The translations under genes and the position numbers were made by a program. A stretch of 64,000 bases of DNA from Millisia brevis NBRC 105863 (GTDB taxonomy: Bacteria > Actinomycetota > Actinomycetes > Mycobacteriales > Mycobacteriaceae), in the NCBI RefSeq assembly GCF_001552615.1, contig NZ_BCRN01000005.1, positions 186,001 through 250,000 on the forward strand. Reading direction: 5' to 3'. This document shows, in pieces, positions 51,144-64,000 of this stretch (its first letter is position 1; each line of letters begins with the position of its first letter). The notes under the pieces are model-generated. The model worked only from the letters and a program-made list of their open reading frames with translations, had not been told where the DNA came from and made no database searches.

Positions 51144-53528
51144 TCAGGCGGACTTCGCGATCGTCACCACCACATTCTTCATCAGCGGCTGGTCGCTCTG
51201 GGTGCTGTAGTCCGCCTTGCCGATCAGCACGTTCATCTCCGGCATGTACCCGGCCGCGCAGCCGGACGGGATGTTGTAGGCGAGGGCCACGTATTCGCGC
51301 AGTTCCCGAACACTCCCGTCGCGCGAGTAGGCGGTGATGTCGACACGGTCCCCCTCGACGAGGCCGCGGGTACGCATATCGTCGCCGTTCATGAACACCA
51401 GCGTGCGCAGGTTCTTCACCCCGCGGTAGCGGTCGTCGTCGGAGTAGATCGTGGTGTTCCACTGATCGTGCGAGCGCATCGTCTGCAGGGTGAGCCGGTC
51501 GGCGACCGGAACCACATCGGGTAGCGCCGCGTCCCGGAACCCCGCCTTGCCGGACGGCGTCAGGAAGATCAGTTCGCGTGCGGGCTGCTTGATGCGGAAG
51601 CCCGCCGGCAGGCGCACCCGACGGTTGAAGTCCTCGAAACCGAAGATGACCTTGGCCATCACGTCGCGGATGTGGTCGTAGTCCGCGACGAACCAGTCCC
51701 ACGGGGTCGAGCTGTCGGGCAGGGCGGCGCGGGCGATGCCGGCGATGATCGCCGGTTCGGAGAGCAGATGCGGCGAGGCGGGGCGGCGCTTGCCGACCGA
51801 CAGGTGCACCATGCTCATCGCGTCCTCGACCGAGACCGATTGTGGCCCGGCGACCTGCATGTCCTTCTCGGTGCGCCCCAGGCAGGGCAGGATGACCGCG
51901 GCCCGGCCGTGCACCAGGTGGCTGCGGTTGAGCTTGGTCGACACCTGGACGGTCAGGTCACATTTGCGCAGGCCGGCGTGGGTATACGCGGTATCCGGGG
52001 CGGCCATGGCGAAGTTGCCGCCCATCCCGACGAAGACCCGCATGTCGCCGCTGTGCATCGCGGCGATCGTGCCGACGGTGTCGAGGCCGTTCTCGCGCGG
52101 CGGGTCGATCCCGCAGACCTCGCCGAGGCGGTCGAGGAACTCCGGCTTGGGACGGTGATCGATACCGCAGGTCCGATTGCCCTGCACATTGCTGTGCCCG
52201 CGCACCGGCGACGGGCCGGCGCCCTCGCGTCCGAGGTTGCCGCGCAGCAGCAGCACGTTGACGAATTCGCGGACGGTGTCGACGCCGTGTTCGTGCTGGG
52301 TCACGCCCAGACACCAGCTGATCAGCGAGCGGTCGGCGGCACAGTAGATGTCGGCGACCCGGATGATCTGGGCCTTGTTCAGCCCGCTCTGCCGTTCCAG
52401 TTCGGTCCACGAGGTGTTCTCGCAGAGCGCCCGGTACGAGTCGAACCCGTCGGTATAGCGGTCGACAAATTCCTTGTCGATCACCCGCGGGTCGGTCGCG
52501 TACTGCTCGAAGAGCGACTTCGCGACGCCGCGGAAGAGGGCCATATCGCCGCCGGGCCGCACCTGGAGGTTCAGCGTGCTGGTCGGGGTCGACTGGAAGG
52601 TCGCCATCGCCAGGATCTCGTGCGGGATGATCGTGCGCGTCGCACCCGCCTCGACCAGCGGGTTGATGTGCACGACCTGCGCCCCGCGCCGGTAGGCCTC
52701 CGCCAGGGAGGTCAGCATGCGCGGCGCGTTCGAGGCCGCGTTGACGCCGATGACGAAGAGCGCATCCGCGTGTTCCCAGTCCGACAGGTCGGCGGTGCCC
52801 TTGCCGGTGCCGAGAGCGGCCTGCAGCGCGCGGCCGGACGCCTCGTGGCACATATTGGAGCAGTCGGGCAGGTTGTTGGTCCCCAGCTCACGGGCGAGCA
52901 GCTGGTAGAGGAATGTCGCCTCGTTGCTCAGCCGACCGGAGGTGTAGTACGCGGCCTGGTTGGGGTTGTCCAACTCGCGCAGGTGCTTGCCGACCAGCTC
53001 GAAGGCGGCGTCCCAGGAGATCGGCTCGTAGTGGTCGGTCTCGGCGTCGTAGACCATCGGCTCGGTCAGCCGTCCGACATCCTCGAGCTGGAAGTCGGTC
53101 CACTCCTCGAGTTCGGAGACGGTATGCGCCGCGAAGAACTCCCGGCCGGCGCGCTTGCTCGTCATCTCCCAACTGACGTGCTTGATGCCGTTCTCGCAGA
53201 TGTCGAGTTTGAGACCGGGGGTATCGGGCCAGGCGCAGCCGGGGCAGTCGAAGCCGCCGTCCTCCTGGTTCATCGTCAGCGTGGCGCGCGCTCCGCGCAG
53301 CACCTCGCGCTCGGTGATCAGGACCTTTGCCACCGACATCGCCGCGCCCCAGCCGGCGGCCGGGTGGTGGTAGTTGCGCTGCTTCCAGGCGGCGTCGGTC
53401 GGCTTGCCGTAACCGCCGTCGTTGAGCGAGACGGTCGTATCGATCGGACCTCGGGCCGGTGGCGGCGCTCCGTCGATATCGGCGCCGCCGGTTCGCGTGT
53501 CGTCGGTGTCGTGCCTGTTCTCGGTCAT
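51144..53528 (-). CDS. YdeP/FdhF-like molybdopterin oxidoreductase
   Basis: This 794-residue member of the DMSO reductase superfamily resembles formate dehydrogenase alpha subunits of the YdeP type. It has NEATFLYQLLARELGTNNLPDCSNMCHEASG, a molybdopterin guanine dinucleotide-binding segment (HADALFVIGVNAASNAPRML) and the C-terminal barrel MRSHDQWNTTIYSDDDRY. The N-terminus has only CPGC and CENG instead of a full 4Fe-4S Cys set, typical of YdeP. The electron donor is unknown. It lies between ptsI and deoR on the minus strand, after a 385-bp control region. ATG 53528 was chosen; upstream sequence in frame does not look coding. Confidence 0.82.
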   Translation of the reverse strand: MTENRHDTDDTRTGGADIDGAPPPARGPIDTTVSLNDGGYGKPTDAAWKQRNYHHPAAGWGAAMSVAKVLITEREVLRGARATLTMNQEDGGFDCPGCAWPDTPGLKLDICENGIKHVSWEMTSKRAGREFFAAHTVSELEEWTDFQLEDVGRLTEPMVYDAETDHYEPISWDAAFELVGKHLRELDNPNQAAYYTSGRLSNEATFLYQLLARELGTNNLPDCSNMCHEASGRALQAALGTGKGTADLSDWEHADALFVIGVNAASNAPRMLTSLAEAYRRGAQVVHINPLVEAGATRTIIPHEILAMATFQSTPTSTLNLQVRPGGDMALFRGVAKSLFEQYATDPRVIDKEFVDRYTDGFDSYRALCENTSWTELERQSGLNKAQIIRVADIYCAADRSLISWCLGVTQHEHGVDTVREFVNVLLLRGNLGREGAGPSPVRGHSNVQGNRTCGIDHRPKPEFLDRLGEVCGIDPPRENGLDTVGTIAAMHSGDMRVFVGMGGNFAMAAPDTAYTHAGLRKCDLTVQVSTKLNRSHLVHGRAAVILPCLGRTEKDMQVAGPQSVSVEDAMSMVHLSVGKRRPASPHLLSEPAIIAGIARAALPDSSTPWDWFVADYDHIRDVMAKVIFGFEDFNRRVRLPAGFRIKQPARELIFLTPSGKAGFRDAALPDVVPVADRLTLQTMRSHDQWNTTIYSDDDRYRGVKNLRTLVFMNGDDMRTRGLVEGDRVDITAYSRDGSVRELREYVALAYNIPSGCAAGYMPEMNVLIGKADYSTQSDQPLMKNVVVTIAKSA

Positions 53529-53914
53529 GACCCCCCCGGGTGCCGGAATACCCCGATGGGCTGCGGGGCATTCGGTGTGATTCGAAAGCTGGGGCGTGAT
53601 GCGAAACCTGGATATGGCGAGCTCGGGGTGCGAGAGTGCGAGGGTTCGCCCCCGAAGTTCGACCATCCGAGCGTACGACCGGCGGATCGCCCCGTCGACC
53701 CTTCGAGGGCACCGACACGAGCGGTGTCGGCCGGAACAAACGATCGTGTGGAGCCCTACAATTTCGGACAACAGCCGCCGCCACGCGCGAGTGAGCCCGA
53801 TCACATTTTGATCGCCTCGATATCTTGACAACCCAACAGATTCGGGCGTAAAACAAATGAAAACCAACAATTGTTGTCCCGTATCTCTTGTCCCTGCGTG
53901 TCGGAGGTGTCCGC
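53529..53914. promoter_or_regulatory. Divergent control region of deoR and the molybdopterin enzyme gene
   Basis: This gene-free 386 bp holds a motif copy at 53834-53858, nearly the same as the one upstream of ptsI, and a perfect palindrome CAACAATTGTTG (53865-53876) 39 bases before the deoR start. TTGACA (53825-53830) is a good -35 box reading toward deoR, with TAAAAC 18 bases later. The motif lies in the promoter spacer, which fits repression, probably autoregulation. Confidence 0.6.
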
Positions 53915-54676: not shown

Positions 54677-55632
54677 TCATCACGGTCACCCCGAATCCGA
54701 GCATCGACCGCACCGCCGTGCTCGACACCCCGCTCGTGCGCGGCGCGGTCCACCGGATCGCCTCGATCGGCACCCAGGCGGCGGGCAAGGGCGTCAACAT
54801 CAGCCGCGCCGCCGTGGCTGCCGGCGTGGACACCGTCGCGGTCCTGCCGGCCGACGCGGACGACCCGTATACCCGCGAGTTGCGGGACGCCGGGCTGACC
54901 GTGCGCCCGGTGCACCCGGCCGGCTCCGTGCGCATCAACCTGTCGATCACCGAACCGGACGGCACCACCACCAAGCTCAACAGCCCCGGCGATACGGTCG
55001 CCGCGGCCGACCTCGACCGGCTGGCCGAGGCGATCGTCGCCGAGGCCGCGACGCGCACCGCCGAGGATTGGGTGGTCCTGGCCGGCTCGGTCCCGCCCGG
55101 GACCCCCGCCCAGTGGTACGCCGAACTGGTCGCCACCCTCGCGGCCACCCCGCCGCGGGTTGCCGTCGACACCAGCGACGCGCCCCTCGCCGCGCTGATC
55201 GAGCGATTGGCCATCGGCGCCCCGCACCTGATCAAGCCGAACAGCGACGAGCTCGCCTCGCTGACCGGCGGTGATCCGGAAGCGATCGAGGCCGATCCCG
55301 CGGCCGCCGCCAAGGCCGCCGCCGGACTGGTCGCCGACGGTATCGAAGCGGTGCTCGCGACCCTCGGCGCCAACGGCGCGGTGCTGGTGACCGCCGACGG
55401 CGCGTGGCGCGCGACGCCGCCGCCTATCGAGGTGGTCAGCACGGTCGGGGCGGGCGATTCGAGCCTCTTCGGCTACCTGCTCGGGCACGAGCGCGGGCTG
55501 CCGCCGGCCGAACGCCTCGCCCTCGCGGTCGCCTACGGCAGCGCGGCGGCGGGGCTGCCGGGCACCACGGTTCCGACACCGGACCAGGTCCGACCCGACC
55601 TCGTCCAGGTGCGGACGCTGTCGGAGGTCTGA
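54673..55632 (+). CDS. fruK: PfkB-family 1-phosphofructokinase-like kinase
   Basis: This 319-residue ribokinase-fold sugar kinase has AAGKGVNISRAAV as the first PfkB signature and VVSTVGAGDSSLFGYLLG as the second, with the catalytic base Asp in GAGDS. The 1-phosphofructokinase subgroup turns fructose-1-phosphate into fructose-1,6-bisphosphate. Its ATG overlaps the deoR stop. The expected fructose EII (fruA) and HPr genes do not follow; an unrelated regulator gene does. Tagatose- or other ketose-phosphate kinase activity cannot be excluded. Confidence 0.83.
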   Translation: MIITVTPNPSIDRTAVLDTPLVRGAVHRIASIGTQAAGKGVNISRAAVAAGVDTVAVLPADADDPYTRELRDAGLTVRPVHPAGSVRINLSITEPDGTTTKLNSPGDTVAAADLDRLAEAIVAEAATRTAEDWVVLAGSVPPGTPAQWYAELVATLAATPPRVAVDTSDAPLAALIERLAIGAPHLIKPNSDELASLTGGDPEAIEADPAAAAKAAAGLVADGIEAVLATLGANGAVLVTADGAWRATPPPIEVVSTVGAGDSSLFGYLLGHERGLPPAERLALAVAYGSAAAGLPGTTVPTPDQVRPDLVQVRTLSEV

Positions 55633-55733
55633 ACCCGCCGGCCCGAGGCAGCCGCCCCGAAGCAATGGGGTCCGAGGCGGCGGTCCGAAGCCGCCGGGGC
55701 GAATTCCGTACCGCTGACAGCTATCCTCGAGAG

Positions 55734-56438
55734 ATGACCGACCCCCGCGCTGCGACGACCGTCGACGCGGACGACGATCCTTCCGCCGACGCGGTATCCG
55801 GCGACGCATCCGGTGACCGGGCCCGCATTCTGGGTTCACGCCTGCGGTCGCTGCGCGAGGCGAAGGGCATGTCGCTGCGGGGATTGGCCCGCCAACTGGG
55901 GATTTCGCCGAGCGCCGTCTCTCAGATCGAGCGTGGTCTGATCACCCCGTCGGTGATGCGGCTGATCGGCATGGTCGAAGCCCTGGGCGCGCCGCTGTGT
56001 GTCGTGCTCGACGACGAACCACTGCACGACAGCACCGCGGTCGGTTTCCACGCCGGCTTCTCGGTGCGGCGAGCCCCCGGCGCGCCGGTCGACCTGACCG
56101 GTGGGGTGACCTACCGCCGACTGTCACCGCCGTTGCCCGGCACCGATTTCTTCGAGTCGATCTATCCGCCGGGCTCGTCGTCGGGACCCCCGGACGAATA
56201 CCTCGAGCACGCCGGAATCGACGCCGGCACCGTCACCGCCGGGCGCGTGATCGTCGAATCCCCGCGCGAGCGCGTCGAGTTGCAGACGGGCGATTCGATC
56301 GCCTTCGACGCGTCGACCCCGCACCGCATCACCAATCCGGACGACGACAAGCCCGCGATTCTCACCTGGTTGACGCTGCACGCGCCGAACCATCGACACA
56401 ACCGCCTCGACGGACACGGGGAACAGCAGGCTAACTGA
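55734..56438 (+). CDS. XRE-cupin transcriptional regulator
   Basis: This 234-residue protein has an acidic N-terminus, an XRE helix-turn-helix (about 35-88; LARQLGISPSAVSQIERG) and a C-terminal cupin (about 150-215) ending in FDASTPHRITNPDD. Such regulators sense a small metabolite. It is convergent with the ureide operon and its stop overlaps the small ORF by 8 bp, so it is a good candidate regulator of purine/ureide degradation. The ligand is unknown. Confidence 0.85.
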   Translation: MTDPRAATTVDADDDPSADAVSGDASGDRARILGSRLRSLREAKGMSLRGLARQLGISPSAVSQIERGLITPSVMRLIGMVEALGAPLCVVLDDEPLHDSTAVGFHAGFSVRRAPGAPVDLTGGVTYRRLSPPLPGTDFFESIYPPGSSSGPPDEYLEHAGIDAGTVTAGRVIVESPRERVELQTGDSIAFDASTPHRITNPDDDKPAILTWLTLHAPNHRHNRLDGHGEQQAN

Positions 56439-56616
56439 ACGGATTCTGAAAGTCGGAGAGCCCGCGCCACAATCCGGCGATACCCCGACCGAGCCAGGAT
56501 CCGATCACACCGACGCCGTGGAACGCCGACTCCGAGCCCGATCGGACGAACTCTCCGACCGCTCGCCACGCTTCCCGGCCGCGGCCACCGCCCGCCGTCA
56601 AACCGCCCTCCGTCAC
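56431..56616 (-). CDS. Small 61-residue protein coupled to the amidohydrolase gene
   Basis: A GTG at 56616 overlaps the AllC-type stop as GTGA and opens a 61-residue frame, with an N-terminal Gly-rich part and an amphipathic or hydrophobic C-terminal stretch (GSESAFHGVGVIGSWLGRGIAGLW). The tight coupling supports real translation. I recognise no family. It ends 8 bp inside the convergent XRE gene. It could be a small membrane-associated accessory protein, or the frame may simply be chance. Confidence 0.42.
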   Translation of the reverse strand: MTEGGLTAGGGRGREAWRAVGEFVRSGSESAFHGVGVIGSWLGRGIAGLWRGLSDFQNPFS

Positions 56617-57875
56617 GCCAGGGACTGTACGGCGTGGGCGAGCGCCGCGATGCCGGCGCCGAGGTCGTCCGGGGAGACGTACTCGGCCGGATGATGGCTG
56701 ATGCCATCGGGATTGCGCATGAAGATCATGCCGACCTCGGTGATCGCGTCGATCGCCATCGCGTCGTGACCGGCCGGGCTGAACAACTCCGGCGGCGTCT
56801 CGTCCTGGACGTCGGCGATGCCGGCGCGCACCGCCTCCTTCAACCGGTCCGCGCAGTACACCGCGGGCGCCTCGTGCAACTGTTTCATCGTCGCGCGCAG
56901 ACCGCGGCGATCGGCGACCTCGGTGACCAGTTCGCGGAACTGTTCGATGATGTCGTCACGCTGATGGTCGTGATGGGCGCGCAGGTCGACGCTGAAGACC
57001 GCGCGACCCGGAATCACGTTCACCGCACCGGGTTCGACCTCCATGCGGCCGACGGTACCGATGACCGAGTGCTCGATGCTGAAGCGTTCCACCGCCAGGA
57101 CCGCCTCGGCGGCGCCCAGCAGCGCGTCGTGCCGCTCGTCGAACGGGGTACCACCGGAATGCCGTGGCTCACCGATGATTTCGATCTCGAAGCGGCGGGC
57201 CGAGGCGATCGACGAGACCACGCCGAGGGGGATACGGGCCCGGTCGAGGCTCGGCCCCTGCTCGATGTGCACCTCGAGGTAGCCGACGACGTTCTTCGCC
57301 GCATAGGACGCATCACCGACGCGCTCGGGGTCGAGACCGAATTCGGCGAACGCCCGGTCGAGGCTGATCCCGTTCTCGTCCTCGAGGCCCCACCAGCGGT
57401 CGTCCCAGGTCCCGGCGACCGCGCGGCTGCCGAGCAGAGCGGTGCCGAAGCGGGTGCCCTCCTCGTCGCCGAAGCCGATCACCTCGACGTCGAAGGGGAA
57501 GTTCGCCGCCCATTCGCCACCGGCGACCTCGATGCCGGCCATCACCCCGGCGATGCCGTCGAAGCGGCCGGCGTCCGGCACGGTGTCCAGGTGCGAGCCG
57601 ATCAGCAGCCGGGGGCGGCGACTGTCGCGTTGTCCGGTGGAGCCGTGCACATTTCCCGCTTCGTCGAGCCAGGTGTGCAGGCCGGATTCCTTCATCCAGC
57701 GCGCGGTCAGGTCGTTGGCGGCGCGGTGTTCGGGGGTCAGGTAGAAGCGGTCGATCTGGCCGGGGACGGCGGTCAGCCCGGCGAGGCGGGCGCAACGGTC
57801 CCAGGCGCGGCGGCCGCGCCGCTCACCGGGCTCGCGTCGATTGCGTCGTTCCCCCTGCTGCTGTGACGTGGTCAT
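56613..57875 (-). CDS. AllC-type amidohydrolase (allantoate amidohydrolase / N-carbamoyl-amino acid hydrolase)
   Basis: This 420-residue M20-family enzyme has its binuclear metal site in GSHLDTVPDAGRFDGIAG (H95, D106), GDEEGTRFG (E138-E139), VHIEQGP (H203) and a late His in FSPAGHDA. Allantoate amidohydrolase releases ammonia and CO2 from allantoate to give ureidoglycine. Position next to the PucG-type transaminase favours that role over carbamoyl-amino acid hydrolysis. The first 30 residues are an Arg-rich extension. ATG overlaps the transaminase stop (ATGA). Confidence 0.85.
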   Translation of the reverse strand: MTTSQQQGERRNRREPGERRGRRAWDRCARLAGLTAVPGQIDRFYLTPEHRAANDLTARWMKESGLHTWLDEAGNVHGSTGQRDSRRPRLLIGSHLDTVPDAGRFDGIAGVMAGIEVAGGEWAANFPFDVEVIGFGDEEGTRFGTALLGSRAVAGTWDDRWWGLEDENGISLDRAFAEFGLDPERVGDASYAAKNVVGYLEVHIEQGPSLDRARIPLGVVSSIASARRFEIEIIGEPRHSGGTPFDERHDALLGAAEAVLAVERFSIEHSVIGTVGRMEVEPGAVNVIPGRAVFSVDLRAHHDHQRDDIIEQFRELVTEVADRRGLRATMKQLHEAPAVYCADRLKEAVRAGIADVQDETPPELFSPAGHDAMAIDAITEVGMIFMRNPDGISHHPAEYVSPDDLGAGIAALAHAVQSLA

Positions 57876-59101
57876 GCCCGCTCCTGATAGATCGCGAACG
57901 CGGCGTCGACCCCGGCGCCGGGATCGAGCTTGCGGAAGCCGCCGATGCGCAGCACCTGCTCGAGCGCGGCCAGGGTCTGCAGCACCGCGTCGCGGCGAGC
58001 GTTGACGCCCATGGTGCCGACGCGCCAGACCCGCCCGGCCAGCGGGCCGAAGGAGGTGCCGATCTCGATCCCGAAGTCGGCGAGCATCGAGGCGCGGATC
58101 GCTTCGCCCTCAACCTCTTCGGGGATCTCGACGGCGACGACGTTGGCCATCTTGTGTTCCTGGTCGCCGTAGAGCGGCAGCCCCATCGCCGCGAGGCCGG
58201 CGGCCATCGCATCACCGGCGGTCTTGTGCCGGTCGATGACGTTCTGCCGCCCCTCCTCGAGGATCACCCGGGCGCATTCGCGGGCGGCGTAGAGCATCGA
58301 GGTGGCCTCGGTGTGGTGGTTGAGCCGCTTCGGGCCCCAGTAGTCCATGATCATGCCGAGGTCGAAGTAGTTCGACGCGATCCGCCGGGTCGACTCGGTG
58401 TCGCCGTCCCCGCGCAGCCCCGCCTCGATACTGCGCCGACCGTTGATGACGTCGACAGCCTTGTCCGACAGGCTGATCGGTGCCGATCCGGGCGGGCCGG
58501 AGAGACACTTCTGCAGACCGGCGGTCGCGACGTCGATGCCCCAGGCGTCCATGTCGAAGGGGTTTCCGCCGAGGGTCGCGGTGGCGTCGACGTAGAAGAG
58601 CGCACCGTTGGCGGCGGCGATCTCGCCGAGTTCGGCGAGCGGCTGGGCGATCGTGGTGGCGGTATCGCCGTGCACGCTGGCGAGCACCTTGGGCTTGACG
58701 GTCTCGACGACCTCACGAATCTTGCTCGCGGGCACCGCCGTTCCCCATTCGGCGTCGACGGCGTGGACCTCGGCCCCGCAGCGCCCGGCGATCTCGACCA
58801 GCAGGTGGCCGAACCGTCCGAAGACCGGAACGACCACACTGTCGCCCGGCTCGATCAACGATACGAGAGCCGCCTCGATGCCGGCGCGGGACGTTCCGTC
58901 GACCAGCATCGTCCACTCGTTGTCGGTGGCGAAGACGTCGCGGTAGAGACCCATGGTCTCGGTCATCGTGTCGGTCATCCACGGGTCGTACTGGCCGACA
59001 AGAGGTGTGGCCAGGGCGCGCAGGACCCGGGGGTCGGCGTTGACCGGGCCGGGGCCCATCAGCAGTCGGGCCGGTGGATCGACGGGGAGGATCGGGGTCA
59101 T
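57872..59101 (-). CDS. pucG: PucG-type (S)-ureidoglycine-glyoxylate aminotransferase
   Basis: This 409-residue class V PLP aminotransferase has PLP lysine K198 in TAGLQKCLSGPPG, D172 in YVDATATLGG and GPGPVNADPRVL at the N-terminus. The family includes alanine-glyoxylate and ureidoglycine-glyoxylate aminotransferases; the AllC-type gene directly downstream (ATGA overlap) supports the latter. The reaction gives oxalurate and glycine. The stop of the upstream amidase gene is only nine bases before its start. Confidence 0.85.
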   Translation of the reverse strand: MTPILPVDPPARLLMGPGPVNADPRVLRALATPLVGQYDPWMTDTMTETMGLYRDVFATDNEWTMLVDGTSRAGIEAALVSLIEPGDSVVVPVFGRFGHLLVEIAGRCGAEVHAVDAEWGTAVPASKIREVVETVKPKVLASVHGDTATTIAQPLAELGEIAAANGALFYVDATATLGGNPFDMDAWGIDVATAGLQKCLSGPPGSAPISLSDKAVDVINGRRSIEAGLRGDGDTESTRRIASNYFDLGMIMDYWGPKRLNHHTEATSMLYAARECARVILEEGRQNVIDRHKTAGDAMAAGLAAMGLPLYGDQEHKMANVVAVEIPEEVEGEAIRASMLADFGIEIGTSFGPLAGRVWRVGTMGVNARRDAVLQTLAALEQVLRIGGFRKLDPGAGVDAAFAIYQERA

Positions 59102-59110
59102 GGTGCTCCT

Positions 59111-60694
59111 TTACCGGTCGGACTGTGGGTGCGCGGCACCCGGGGCGGTGACGGCCTTGGCCGCGGTGGGCGCCCAGGAGGCGGCGAGATCGATCAGCGT
59201 CAGGTCGTCGTCGACCGCTCCGATCACCCCGAGCCCGACGGGCAGACCGTCGACCTCGAGTAGGGGCGCGCTGATCGCCGGCAGGCCGCCGACGCTCGCG
59301 ATGGTGGTCAACGCCAGGGTCGACGTGCGGGTCTGCGGGCCGACATCCGCCGGTCGAGGCGCAGGTCCGGGGCAGCTCGGCAACACCAACGGCGCTCCGG
59401 CGGCCAGGTCGCGCAGCAGCGGCCGCAGCCGGTCGAGGTCGTTGCCCGCCACTTCGATCGCGGCGACGGAGAGGTCCTGCGCGGCGGCGAACCGTTCCGC
59501 GACATCCGCGCCCAGGGCGCCGGGGTGCTCGGCGATCCACTCGCCGTAGCGCTCCCACGCCTGACCGCCCTGGACGACCCGGAAGGTCTCCCGGATCAGG
59601 TCGGGGTCCGGGATCTCGACGGTGCGCACGTCGTCGAGCAGCCCGTCGGTGCGCAGGCTCTCGAGCAGGGCGTCGAAGGCGATGAGCGTACCCGGCTCCA
59701 GCAGGCGGGAAAGCCCGTCGGGGACCGCGACGACCCGCGGTAGCGGCCGGGCGGTCGGGTCCGGCAGATACGCCGCGGTGACCAGCCGCAGGATCTGGGG
59801 GGTGCGGGTGATCCAGCCGACGACGTCGAAGGCAGGGGCCAAGGGCACCAGCCCGCCGCGATCCACCGCGCCGAAGGTGGTGCGCAGGCCCCAGAGTCCC
59901 TGGTAGGAGGCGGGCACTCGAATGCTGCCCGCCGTGTCGGTCGCCAGGCCGATGTCCGCCTGACCGAGCCCGACCGCGGAGGCCGGGCCGCTGGACGAGC
60001 CACCGGGCAACCGACCGGGGGCAGCGGTGTTCGGCGGCGTTCCGTAGTGCGGATTGGTGCCGGCGATGCTGTACGCGAACTCGTCGGTGGCCGCGATCCC
60101 GACGATCGACGCACCGGCGGCGCGCAGCGTCTCCACGGCCGCCGCGTCGGTGAGCGCGGCGGGCGCCTCGGCGGCGACGGCGGGTACCCCGCAGCCGGTG
60201 GGGAAGCCGGTCACCGCGAACAGATCCTTGACCGCGACGGTCAGGCCGGCGAGGGGACCCTCGCCGGTGGGGCGCACCAGCGGGTCGCCCACCGACCGCC
60301 AGACCCGGGTGTCGAGCGCCTTGGGGCGAGGGGTGACGTGGGCGGCGGCGATGCGCCAGCGGTCGTCGTCGTACCGCCAGATCTGGGTCTGGTAGCCGCG
60401 TCCACCGCCGTCGAAGGCGGATTCGCTGACGATCAGGACCGTATCGTCGGACAGCCGACGCAACTCGACATGGGAGATCGTGCGGGTCGCGATACCGCCG
60501 CGGGCGCTGCGGAATCGGGCGATCTGCTCGGCGCCGACCAGGATGCCGGAGCCGTCGGCGCGGATGACGTCGGACCCGGATTCGAAGGCGTCGGCCAGCG
60601 CATCACCGTCGTCGGCCGCCAGGGCCGCCTCGTAGCCGTCGAAGGCCTCGCGCAGCCCGGCGGGCCAGATACCGCGTATCGCAGACTCTTTCAC
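59111..60694 (-). CDS. HpxZ/AtzH-like domain fused to an amidase-signature enzyme
   Basis: This 527-residue protein has an N-terminal NTF2-like AtzH/HpxZ domain (DUF3225, about 1-125; EALAADDGDALADAF and RYDDDRWRIAAAHVT). It is followed by an amidase-signature domain (about 140-527). The catalytic Ser-cisSer-Lys set is K156 (TVAVKDLF), S233 (GGSSSG) and S257 (TAGSIRVPA). In Klebsiella HpxZ and HpxY are separate proteins in the oxalurate branch, as I recall; here they are one chain. The neighbouring transaminase makes oxalurate, an N-acyl urea, so oxalurate hydrolysis is a reasonable guess. GTG overlaps the upstream stop (GTGA). Confidence 0.8.
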   Translation of the reverse strand: MKESAIRGIWPAGLREAFDGYEAALAADDGDALADAFESGSDVIRADGSGILVGAEQIARFRSARGGIATRTISHVELRRLSDDTVLIVSESAFDGGGRGYQTQIWRYDDDRWRIAAAHVTPRPKALDTRVWRSVGDPLVRPTGEGPLAGLTVAVKDLFAVTGFPTGCGVPAVAAEAPAALTDAAAVETLRAAGASIVGIAATDEFAYSIAGTNPHYGTPPNTAAPGRLPGGSSSGPASAVGLGQADIGLATDTAGSIRVPASYQGLWGLRTTFGAVDRGGLVPLAPAFDVVGWITRTPQILRLVTAAYLPDPTARPLPRVVAVPDGLSRLLEPGTLIAFDALLESLRTDGLLDDVRTVEIPDPDLIRETFRVVQGGQAWERYGEWIAEHPGALGADVAERFAAAQDLSVAAIEVAGNDLDRLRPLLRDLAAGAPLVLPSCPGPAPRPADVGPQTRTSTLALTTIASVGGLPAISAPLLEVDGLPVGLGVIGAVDDDLTLIDLAASWAPTAAKAVTAPGAAHPQSDR

Positions 60695-61776
60695 CGGCTC
60701 GCCTCGGGCCCGGCGAAGTCGGCGCGCGGGATGGCGGCGTGGGCGCCGCAGACCTGGTCGACGACCTGGGAAACGTTGACGTTGACCGCGGCGGACAGGT
60801 ACGCGAGCGCCAGGTGCGGCTCCATGCCGTAACGGGCGCCGAGGAAGTCGATCGCCTCGCGCACGCACATGCGCACGGCGGCGTCGAGGTCCGGGTCCAG
60901 ACCGGTGGGGACAAAGGCGTCCGCGGTCTCGACGAACGGGATCTTCCGATCGCCGTATTCGAGCAGGGCCTGCTCGCGCGGCACCACCTCGGCGCGCACG
61001 GTCACCCGCAGCGACGCCTCGAGCGCGGTGAGCGCGACCTCGCCGTCGCCCTGCGCGAAGTGCGGGTCGCCAACGTAGAAGTTCGCCCCGGGCACCTGCA
61101 CGGGCAGCAGGATGCTGGCACCGGCGGTCAGCATGCGGATGTCGATATTGCCGCCGTGCGGGCCGGGCGGGACCGAGTGCAGCCGGCCCCCCTCGGCGGG
61201 GGTGACGCCGATGAGACCGAGGAAGGGGTTGATCGGGAAGCGGACCACCCGGTCGCCGCCCTCGACCAGCGGCATCGACGCCAGACCGTCCGCCTCGACC
61301 GGGGTGAAGACGCTGACGTTGTGGTCGCCGCGGGGGAACTCGCCGGGCAGCGCGCCGCGGCCGTGCCGATTGGACACCACACCGTAGGGCACCCGCGGCA
61401 GCGCCTCGACCAGCGTCAATCGCAGCAGGTCGCCGGGGCGGGCGCCCTCGACGGCGATCGGATGGGAGACGACGTGCGGGCCGTCGGCGTCCGTGCGGCC
61501 GACCTCGGCGGTGATGGCGACCGCGTCGTCGAGGATGTTCTCGCGCGCGACACCCTTGCTGCCGAAGTACTCGACCGGATTCGATCCCTGGTCGGGGAGC
61601 AGTCCCTCGTGGCTGACGGTGTCGATGGTGATCTCGGCGCCGTCGGCGATCGTGACGATCGGGGCGTCGTCGGCACCCGGGAGCCGGCCCCACAGGACGG
61701 CATCCGGCTCCGAGCGCAGGTAGTGGCTGCTCCGCAGGGGACCACTCTTCGGCTGGAGGATCGATGCTGTCGTCAC
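60691..61776 (-). CDS. Acetamidase/formamidase (FmdA-family) amidohydrolase
   Basis: This 361-residue protein has the FmdA/AmdA beta fold, with markers DGAEITIDTVSHEG, FPINPFLGLIGVTPA, GGNIDIRMLTAG and GDPHFAQGDGEVALTALEAS. Members release ammonia from short amides such as formamide or acetamide. It is the first gene of the ureide operon, with GTG 61776 behind AGGAAGG. In this setting oxamate is a candidate substrate, giving oxalate and ammonia; that is inference from position, and formamide from another route is an alternative. Confidence 0.82.
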   Translation of the reverse strand: MTTASILQPKSGPLRSSHYLRSEPDAVLWGRLPGADDAPIVTIADGAEITIDTVSHEGLLPDQGSNPVEYFGSKGVARENILDDAVAITAEVGRTDADGPHVVSHPIAVEGARPGDLLRLTLVEALPRVPYGVVSNRHGRGALPGEFPRGDHNVSVFTPVEADGLASMPLVEGGDRVVRFPINPFLGLIGVTPAEGGRLHSVPPGPHGGNIDIRMLTAGASILLPVQVPGANFYVGDPHFAQGDGEVALTALEASLRVTVRAEVVPREQALLEYGDRKIPFVETADAFVPTGLDPDLDAAVRMCVREAIDFLGARYGMEPHLALAYLSAAVNVNVSQVVDQVCGAHAAIPRADFAGPEASR

Positions 61777-62049: not shown

Positions 62050-62763
62050 ATGGCAGGGCTGATGGCTCGCGCGGCGGAATGGGAACGCGGCCGCGTCGAA
62101 CTGACCATGATGTTGGCGTTGACGTTCACCACCGGCATCATCGACGCGATCGGCTTCCTCGGCCTCGATCGTGTCTTCACCGCCAACATGACCGGCAATG
62201 TCGTGATCATGGGCATGGGCCTGGTCGGCTCCACCGATCTGCCGGTTCTCGGGCCCGCGCTCGCCTTCGTCGGCTTCGTCCTCGGCGCGGGTATCGCCGC
62301 CGCGGTCCAGCGCAAGGCCCGCGCCGGTTGGAGCGGCATCACCACCACCGTGCTGACCATCTGCGCCCTGATCCCGCTGGCGATGGGCGTGCTCGCCGAG
62401 ATCGAGGGCCACGTCGTGGCGCATACCCCGACCGCCCTGACGATCACCGGCATGCTCGGTCTGGCGATGGGCGCGCAGGCGGCGACCGCCCGCCGCATCG
62501 GCGTCAAGGACGTCACCACGGTCGTGATCACCTCGACGATCACCGGCATGGCCGCCGATTCGCGGCTCGCGGGCGGCAACGGCTCGGGTACCGGTCGGCG
62601 GGTCTGGGCGATCGCGTTGATGTTCCTCGGCGCCCTGGTCGGAGCGCTGCTGCTGCTGACCAGTCTGGGGATCGCCCTGCTGGTCGCGGGCGGGTTGATG
62701 CTGCTGGTCATCTGGGTCGGGCACGCGATCCGGCCGCGACGCGACGCCGAAGCCACCGCCTGA
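62050..62763 (+). CDS. DUF1275 (YoaK-type) membrane protein
   Basis: This 237-residue protein has about six transmembrane segments and the DUF1275 motif TGIIDAIGFLGLDRVFTANMTGN (about residues 24-46). Function is not established; members are often near transport or stress genes. GAAGGAGATCGG gives a strong ribosome site before ATG 62050. It sits between the ureide operon and the allantoinase gene, transcribed away from the operon and convergent with allantoinase, so a role in ureide or ion transport is possible but unproven. Confidence 0.85.
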   Translation: MAGLMARAAEWERGRVELTMMLALTFTTGIIDAIGFLGLDRVFTANMTGNVVIMGMGLVGSTDLPVLGPALAFVGFVLGAGIAAAVQRKARAGWSGITTTVLTICALIPLAMGVLAEIEGHVVAHTPTALTITGMLGLAMGAQAATARRIGVKDVTTVVITSTITGMAADSRLAGGNGSGTGRRVWAIALMFLGALVGALLLLTSLGIALLVAGGLMLLVIWVGHAIRPRRDAEATA

Positions 62764-62809: not shown

Positions 62810-64000
62810 TCAGGCCGCCGGGGTGCGGACGACCGGGGTGATCAGCCGGCCGGGATGGGCCCCGGTGAACGGGTCGGCGCCGGCGGTGTCGTAGACGACC
62901 TCGCCGCGCACCATCGTGCGGTGCACCACCCCGTACAGATCCTCGCCGTTGTAAGCGGTCAGCGGGTTGCGGTGTTCGAGGCGTGCCGCGTCGACCCGGT
63001 GGACCTCGTCGGGCGCGAACTCGATGAGGTTGGCCAGCGCACCGGCGCGGATCTCGCCGACATCGACGACTCCGGCCAGGTCGGCCGGCCCGGTGGTGTG
63101 GCGCGGCAGCAGCGTTTCGAGGCTGATCCCCCGGCCGCGGGCGGCGGTCCAGGACGCGGAGAAGGCGAGCTGCAGCGAAGCGATGCCGCCCCAGGCCAGG
63201 CCGAAGTCCCCGTCGCCGCGGTCCTTGAGTTCACGGGTGCTCGGCGAATGGTCGGACACGATCGCCATGATGTCGCCGGAGACCACCGCCTCCCAGAGGT
63301 GGTCGCGGTCGTCGCCGCCGCGGATCGGCGGGCAGCACTTGAAGACGGTCGCCGAGTCCGGGATATCGGCCGGATCGAAGAACAGGTAGTGCGGGCAGGT
63401 TTCCGCGGTGATCCGCACCCCGTCGGCCCGGGCGGCACGGATCATGTCGACCGCGTCACCGCTGGAGACGTGCAGGACGTGGGCGCGAGCCCCGGTTCGC
63501 CGCGCCTCGGCGATCACCCGGGCGACCGCGGAGGTCTCCGCAACCGGGGGCCGTGAGTTCAGGAACGGCCGGTAGTGGTGGCCGAGGGGCCGATCACCGC
63601 CGGTGAGCAGCTCGGGGTCCTCGGCGTGCACGATCGCGAGCAGGTCGAGCCGCGCGCACTCGGTCATCATCGCGGCGAACTGGTCGGGGTCGAGGGCGGG
63701 GAATTCGTCGACACCCGACGGGGACAGGAACGACTTGACGCCGAAGACGCCGTTGTCGCGCAGGGCGTCGAGCTTGCCGAGGCTCGACGGGATCGCGCCG
63801 CCCCAGAAGCCGACATCGATCAGCGGAACCCCGACCGCCGCCCGCTTGAGCTCCAGGGCCTCCGGGGTGGTCGTCGGCGGGATGCTGTTGAGCGGCATGT
63901 CGACGATCGTGGTGACCCCGCCCGCGGCGGCGGCGCGCAGCGCGGTCGGGAAGCCTTCCCAGTCCGTGCGGCCGGGGTCGTTGACGTGTACATGCGAGTC
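62810..64000 (-). CDS. allB: Allantoinase, N-terminus beyond the window
   Basis: About 397 C-terminal residues of an amidohydrolase-superfamily enzyme; the frame continues past 64000. The metal ligands are HVH in DSHVHVNDPGRTDWEGF, a carbamylated Lys in GVFGVKSFLSPSG, His in AIVHAEDPE and HVLHVSSGDA, and Asp in AIVSDHSPST. These, with TAETCPHYLFF, match allantoinase rather than dihydropyrimidinase. It opens allantoin to allantoate, the substrate of the AllC-type enzyme 5 kb away. Confidence 0.9.
   Translation of the reverse strand, partial: DSHVHVNDPGRTDWEGFPTALRAAAAGGVTTIVDMPLNSIPPTTTPEALELKRAAVGVPLIDVGFWGGAIPSSLGKLDALRDNGVFGVKSFLSPSGVDEFPALDPDQFAAMMTECARLDLLAIVHAEDPELLTGGDRPLGHHYRPFLNSRPPVAETSAVARVIAEARRTGARAHVLHVSSGDAVDMIRAARADGVRITAETCPHYLFFDPADIPDSATVFKCCPPIRGGDDRDHLWEAVVSGDIMAIVSDHSPSTRELKDRGDGDFGLAWGGIASLQLAFSASWTAARGRGISLETLLPRHTTGPADLAGVVDVGEIRAGALANLIEFAPDEVHRVDAARLEHRNPLTAYNGEDLYGVVHRTMVRGEVVYDTAGADPFTGAHPGRLITPVVRTPAA

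Follow-up and report, generated by a model that had tools for sequence, protein, structure and literature searches.

A candidate AtzH-amidase fusion for oxalurate degradation in the uric acid gene cluster of Millisia brevis

The uric acid gene cluster of Millisia brevis encodes a fusion of an AtzH-like domain and an amidase that may degrade oxalurate in two steps on a single chain during aerobic purine catabolism, with an FmdA-like partner that might act on oxamate. We lean slightly toward this reading, which draws on gene context, conserved residues, and the distribution of the genes. Proteins of the PucG family produce oxalurate, and the known oxalurate consumers are AllFGH and, in Klebsiella, HpxXYZ. 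In the open-access papers searched, no gene is assigned to oxalurate breakdown in actinobacteria; subscription papers may hold more. If the reading is correct, it identifies the actinobacterial gene for oxalurate breakdown and probably the one for the following step, and a single chain with a different kind of amidase would take over the function of the three-protein HpxXYZ system. In addition, Gln265, the overlap with the FmdA-like gene, and the linkage to pucG would together form an annotation marker for proteins that are now labeled just "amidase".

The fusion gene and its neighbors

The fusion gene is intact and lies within a compact operon. It was analyzed in a 64,000-nucleotide stretch of contig NZ_BCRN01000005.1, called the window here (Table 1). 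The frame is unbroken from a GTG at 60694 to a TAA at 59111-59113 and encodes 527 amino acids, in which an AtzH-like domain of NTF2 type is followed by a short linker and an amidase-signature domain. The AtzH-like match (PF11533) covers approximately residues 13-121 and scores 52.3 bits, while the Pfam amidase match in the same chain starts near residue 146 and scores 175 bits; the cutoff is 27 in both cases. The next gene, pucG, starts 9 bases past the fusion stop codon, with AGGAG in the gap. These results bear out the sequence-only reading, in which an AtzH-type domain was fused to an amidase beside PucG. The same fusion with the same neighbors recurs in more than 20 further actinobacterial loci, which excludes both chance and an error of the assembly.

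Table 1. Features of the purine cluster, with positions in the window
Feature	Position	Strand	Remarks
XRE-cupin regulator (candidate)	55404..56438	+	Converges on the M20 gene; four other clusters have relatives nearby
M20 hydantoinase/carbamoylase-family amidohydrolase	56613..57875	-	ATGA 4-base overlap with the pucG stop
PucG, ureidoglycine-glyoxylate aminotransferase	57872..59101	-	Best solved relatives 3nnk and 3isl
Fusion protein	59111..60694	-	AtzH-like ~13-121 and amidase-signature ~130-527; K156/S233/S257; Y21, R45, R62, R65, R71, Q102, Q104; clade signature Q265
FmdA/AmdA-like amidase	60691..61776	-	Stop overlaps the fusion GTG by 4 bases; putative oxamate amidohydrolase
Allantoinase AllB	62810..64000	-	474.9 bits, cutoff 357.85; gene runs past the window end

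Both halves of the protein are distant from the enterobacterial proteins to which they had been likened. The amidase half scores 337.6 bits with PRK08310, below that model's cutoff of 391, and 149.9 and 156 bits with the AtzE models, whose cutoffs are 425.75 and 461. Because PRK08310 outscores the AtzE models, the amidase half is a cousin and not an orthologue of AtzE. The label HpxY-like is therefore right about the amidase signature but loose, since the subfamily is a different one. Similarly, HpxZ-like holds as far as the AtzH-like domain is concerned, but the score with the HpxZ equivalog model NF033625 is 46.7 bits against a cutoff of 135. A GatC-like partner gene is absent among the overlapping operon genes at this locus, and a SnoaL_4 (PF13577) profile search of the Millisia brevis genome gave no match.

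Residue conservation suggests that the AtzH half keeps a decarboxylase pocket, and the plain name amidohydrolase would understate such a protein. AtzH residues Tyr22, Arg46, Arg63, Arg66, Arg73, Gln106, and Gln108 (6bjt) correspond in that order to the seven AtzH-half residues listed in Table 1, and all are kept; at least 23 of the 24 purine-linked fusions retain the equivalent residues. Mutation of Tyr22 or Arg46 impairs the activity of AtzH (PMC6219798). The position of AtzH Arg96 is occupied by Ser in the Millisia fusion and by Ser or Thr across the purine-linked fusions. The amidase half has the Lys, cis-Ser, Ser triad of the amidase-signature family along with the GGSS(S)G motif, and the triad is found in all aligned family members except the one from L125. 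The domain is compact and close to malonamidase E2 in fold and size. An AlphaFold model of the fusion (7 sequences; mean pLDDT 69, below 50 in the S233 loop) confirms the amidase fold and is too weak for arguments about the pocket.

The fusion gene is part of a four-gene unit on the minus strand, consisting of the FmdA-like gene, the fusion gene, pucG, and the M20 amidohydrolase gene. The unit is tight, as seen from its 4-base overlaps and the single 9-base gap, and it is presumably co-transcribed. PucG scores highest with 3nnk, the ureidoglycine-glyoxylate aminotransferase of K. pneumoniae (537 bits), followed by 3isl, the PucG of B. subtilis (436 bits), and the next match is an alanine-glyoxylate aminotransferase with 289. 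Its closest relatives thus identify it by sequence as UGXT rather than AGXT. The M20 protein scores 476.5 bits with the allantoate amidohydrolase model (cutoff 479) and is probably an allantoate amidohydrolase. Past the window end, divergent from allB, are genes for OHCU decarboxylase, HIU hydrolase, and factor-independent urate hydroxylase (uricase), and by gene content the locus and its flank hold a complete uric acid operon set. A TPP enzyme near the cluster was considered as a glyoxylate carboligase and dropped, as it is a pyruvate dehydrogenase/oxidase. A DUF1275 membrane protein, possibly a transporter, is encoded at 62050-62763 (+), divergent from the FmdA-like gene, and recurs beside FmdA in several clusters. 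Elsewhere in the window, a long frame at 51144-53870 (-) resembles formate dehydrogenase/molybdopterin-type oxidoreductases, and its listed start is probably too far upstream.

The FmdA-like gene is at least as tight a partner of the fusion as PucG is. The sequence-only reading had paired the fusion with its neighbor PucG and left out this coupled upstream amidase. The FmdA stop and the fusion start overlap by 4 bp in 24 of 27 loci, and the FmdA-like gene is found in 22 of the 24 PucG genomes versus 39 of the 371 others.

Distribution and family relationships

The distribution of the fusion follows that of PucG. A set of 395 genomes of the class was surveyed, with close PucG defined by E <= 1e-110 and fusion relatives by E <= 1e-60. 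Close PucG is present in 24 genomes and fusion relatives in 51, and the 51 include every PucG genome. A true fusion is found in 21 of the 24 PucG genomes versus 7 of the 371 without PucG (Fisher p ~6e-26, uncorrected for phylogeny). The PucG genomes carry seven or more different family labels (f1, f34, f41, f45, f51, f58, f59). The amidase gene is within 12 kb of pucG in 22 of the 24; in one of these 22 (G324) the linked amidase is of a divergent Cys type and FmdA is lacking. The survey strongly supports the candidacy of the fusion for oxalurate. At approximately 20 loci FmdA and the fusion occur with PucG and M20, usually together with OHCU decarboxylase, HIUH, uricase, and AllB. Fusion loci with PucG nearby include those of Miniimonas, Zafaria, and Propionicimonas, while in Nesterenkonia the fusion is followed by OHCU decarboxylase. 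In two purine clusters (L032:11638-14045, L031:1206-4426), YcsF and KipI/KipA-like (5-oxoprolinase type) genes adjoin the fusion gene or lie upstream of the allantoinase gene.

The purine-linked proteins form a distinct group with its own signature residue. A tree built from 70 amidase domains places all PucG-linked proteins that have FmdA in one clade of 34 (support 99/90). Gln265, located 8 residues past the nucleophile, is present in 27 of 27 purine-linked members of this clade, while 21 of 23 proteins of other clades have Cys at this position. Most members of these other clades are encoded in operons that also carry a RutB/BiuH-like isochorismatase and a luciferase-like monooxygenase. A Gln-type protein is found in 22 of the 24 PucG genomes; the other two both have AllG, and six genomes have both. 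The AtzH domain has been lost from two PucG-linked proteins (G388, G242). Its loss is associated with the presence of AllG at p = 0.03, uncorrected for phylogeny, which is a hint.

Relatives outside purine clusters show that the architecture of the fusion, judged from gene neighborhoods, is by itself no proof of an oxalurate substrate. Gln-type relatives also occur in the PucG-less genomes G021, G529, G074, G554, and G425. None of these has an AllD above the cutoff, so they lack a known source of oxalurate. It is conceivable, though rather unlikely, that the true substrate is a different ureide or N-carboxy amide, such as ureidoglycolate or an amide derived from an N-heterocycle, and that proximity to PucG reflects general nitrogen salvage. 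Such a role would suit both these genomes and the PucG-less operons of relatives that include a RutB/BiuH-like isochorismatase, a luciferase-like monooxygenase, and creatininase. However, those operons mostly carry the different clade with Cys at 265, and a general salvage enzyme would not be expected to be linked so tightly to pucG and uricase genes in most PucG genomes.

Some of these relatives suggest wider uses of the same genes. At L121:5970-13761 and L112:6721-11504, AtzH-amidase relatives, often with FmdA, are accompanied by a luciferase-like monooxygenase, a RutB/BiuH-like isochorismatase, creatininase, and an XRE-cupin regulator, while on a plasmid of Rhodococcus sp. PD04 (L143) the relative is found with a monooxygenase and FmdA only. 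Perhaps these operons represent an undescribed N-heterocycle pathway. A speculative extension, to which we assign a low probability, is that FmdA and the AtzH-amidase form a portable module converting N-carbamoyl amides of dicarboxylic acids to the dicarboxylate. The module would complete uric acid breakdown after PucG and would also end a second, undescribed operon (flavin monooxygenase, RutB/BiuH-like isochorismatase, creatininase) with an oxalurate-like intermediate there too. Both fused and unfused forms exist. Some genomes carry AtzH as the terminal part of a metallo-beta-lactamase protein, with a free amidase alongside, and in Caballeronia AtzH is encoded by a separate gene that adjoins the amidase gene. 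At L121:7668-9335 the metallo-beta-lactamase protein has a C-terminal AtzH-like domain, and the free amidase gene follows directly. On the Caballeronia plasmid (L142, 7772-10568), a DUF1116 - hpxZ - amidase arrangement lies by xanthine dehydrogenase-like genes; DUF1116 is the former name of AllG, and two oxalurate-linked functions are thus adjacent.

Proposed route from oxalurate to oxalate

The fusion and the FmdA-like protein are candidates for the conversion of oxalurate to oxamate and then oxalate because in the purine clusters theirs are the enzyme genes without an assigned step, and these two conversions are the steps that lack a gene. Allantoate amidohydrolase and PucG would convert allantoate to oxalurate and glycine, as established for the PucG family. 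The amidase domain (K156/S233/S257) would release ammonia from the terminal amide of oxalurate and leave N-carboxyoxamate, by analogy with AtzE acting on 1-carboxybiuret. The AtzH domain (Y21/R45) would then decarboxylate N-carboxyoxamate to oxamate, as AtzH does with 1,3-dicarboxyurea. More tentatively, the translationally coupled FmdA-like protein may hydrolyze oxamate to oxalate and ammonia, replacing Klebsiella HpxW. Carbamates also shed CO2 spontaneously, in keeping with the two clusters that have lost the AtzH domain. Searches of the Millisia brevis genome found neither AllG nor AllD, and no oxalyl-CoA decarboxylase that could serve as an oxalate sink was above the cutoff in the PucG genomes.

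Cleavage of the inner amide, with the amidase turning oxalurate into oxalate and urea and the AtzH domain being structural, is very improbable. It is chemically possible, and urease is found in 9 of the 24 PucG genomes, Millisia brevis included. However, the other 15 have no urease, and this scheme leaves no role for the conserved AtzH pocket or the coupled FmdA gene.

The roles of the two amidases might also be reversed, which we regard as improbable. The FmdA-like enzyme would attack the carbamoyl end of oxalurate, the AtzH domain would decarboxylate N-carboxyoxamate, and the fused amidase would hydrolyze oxamate, so that the fused chain carries out two consecutive steps. The resemblance to malonamidase E2 suits such a scheme, as malonamate is oxamate plus one carbon, and so does the position of the amidase outside the AtzE subfamily. 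The operon also lacks an HpxW gene, and two PucG genomes lack any GGT-family gene. On the other hand, Klebsiella pairs the amidase-signature component with oxalurate and HpxW with oxamate, and known FmdA relatives use small plain amides. Away from the cluster, Millisia brevis also encodes a YwrD-like GGT-family protein, close to 2nlz, that could be an alternative oxamate enzyme. B. subtilis YwrD, a member of the same general GGT family, has been proposed as an HpxW counterpart (PMC5270733).

The two-step route through N-carboxyoxamate is the reading that we prefer. Points against it are the amidase subfamily, which is not that of AtzE/HpxY, the replacement of Arg96, the Gln-type relatives without PucG, the two PucG-linked proteins that lack the AtzH domain, the absence of an oxalyl-CoA decarboxylase above the cutoff from the PucG genomes, and the unlinked GGT-family protein as a possible oxamate enzyme. 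The gene had earlier been called a strong candidate for a single-chain oxalurate amidohydrolase. Co-occurrence with PucG keeps it a candidate, but the predicted reaction now has two steps with a decarboxylase pocket, the amidase is of a different subfamily, and there are non-purine relatives.

Comparison with known systems

The FmdA-like protein is a Pfam member of the FmdA formamidase/acetamidase family (PF03069). Unlike the FmdA formamidases, it forms a conserved subfamily of its own, and it scores 79.5 bits with the formamidase model NF045496, for which the cutoff is 500. E. coli AllFGH oxamic transcarbamylase likewise converts oxalurate to oxamate, but its proteins are unrelated to the fusion and it produces carbamoyl phosphate.

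The AtzE-AtzG and AtzH proteins of Pseudomonas sp. ADP carry out the same two steps that are proposed for the fusion, from 1-carboxybiuret via 1,3-dicarboxyurea to allophanate, and the catalytic residues of AtzH are kept in the fusion. In contrast to the fusion, these are separate proteins of the cyanuric acid pathway with AtzG as a partner subunit, and Arg96 is present.

The closest parallel in pathway position is Klebsiella HpxXY, HpxZ, and HpxW, which also have a transaminase and an allantoate amidohydrolase nearby and combine amidase-signature and AtzH-type components. The Millisia system differs in that these parts are fused, the GatC-like HpxX is missing, the amidase is of another subfamily, and the AtzH half scores well under the HpxZ cutoff. 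HpxW is an Ntn hydrolase, while the Millisia operon has the FmdA-like protein in that place. Esquirol and co-workers described enterobacterial ggt-atzG-atzE-atzH genes near transaminase and allantoate amidohydrolase genes, and this arrangement is the unfused counterpart of that in Millisia.
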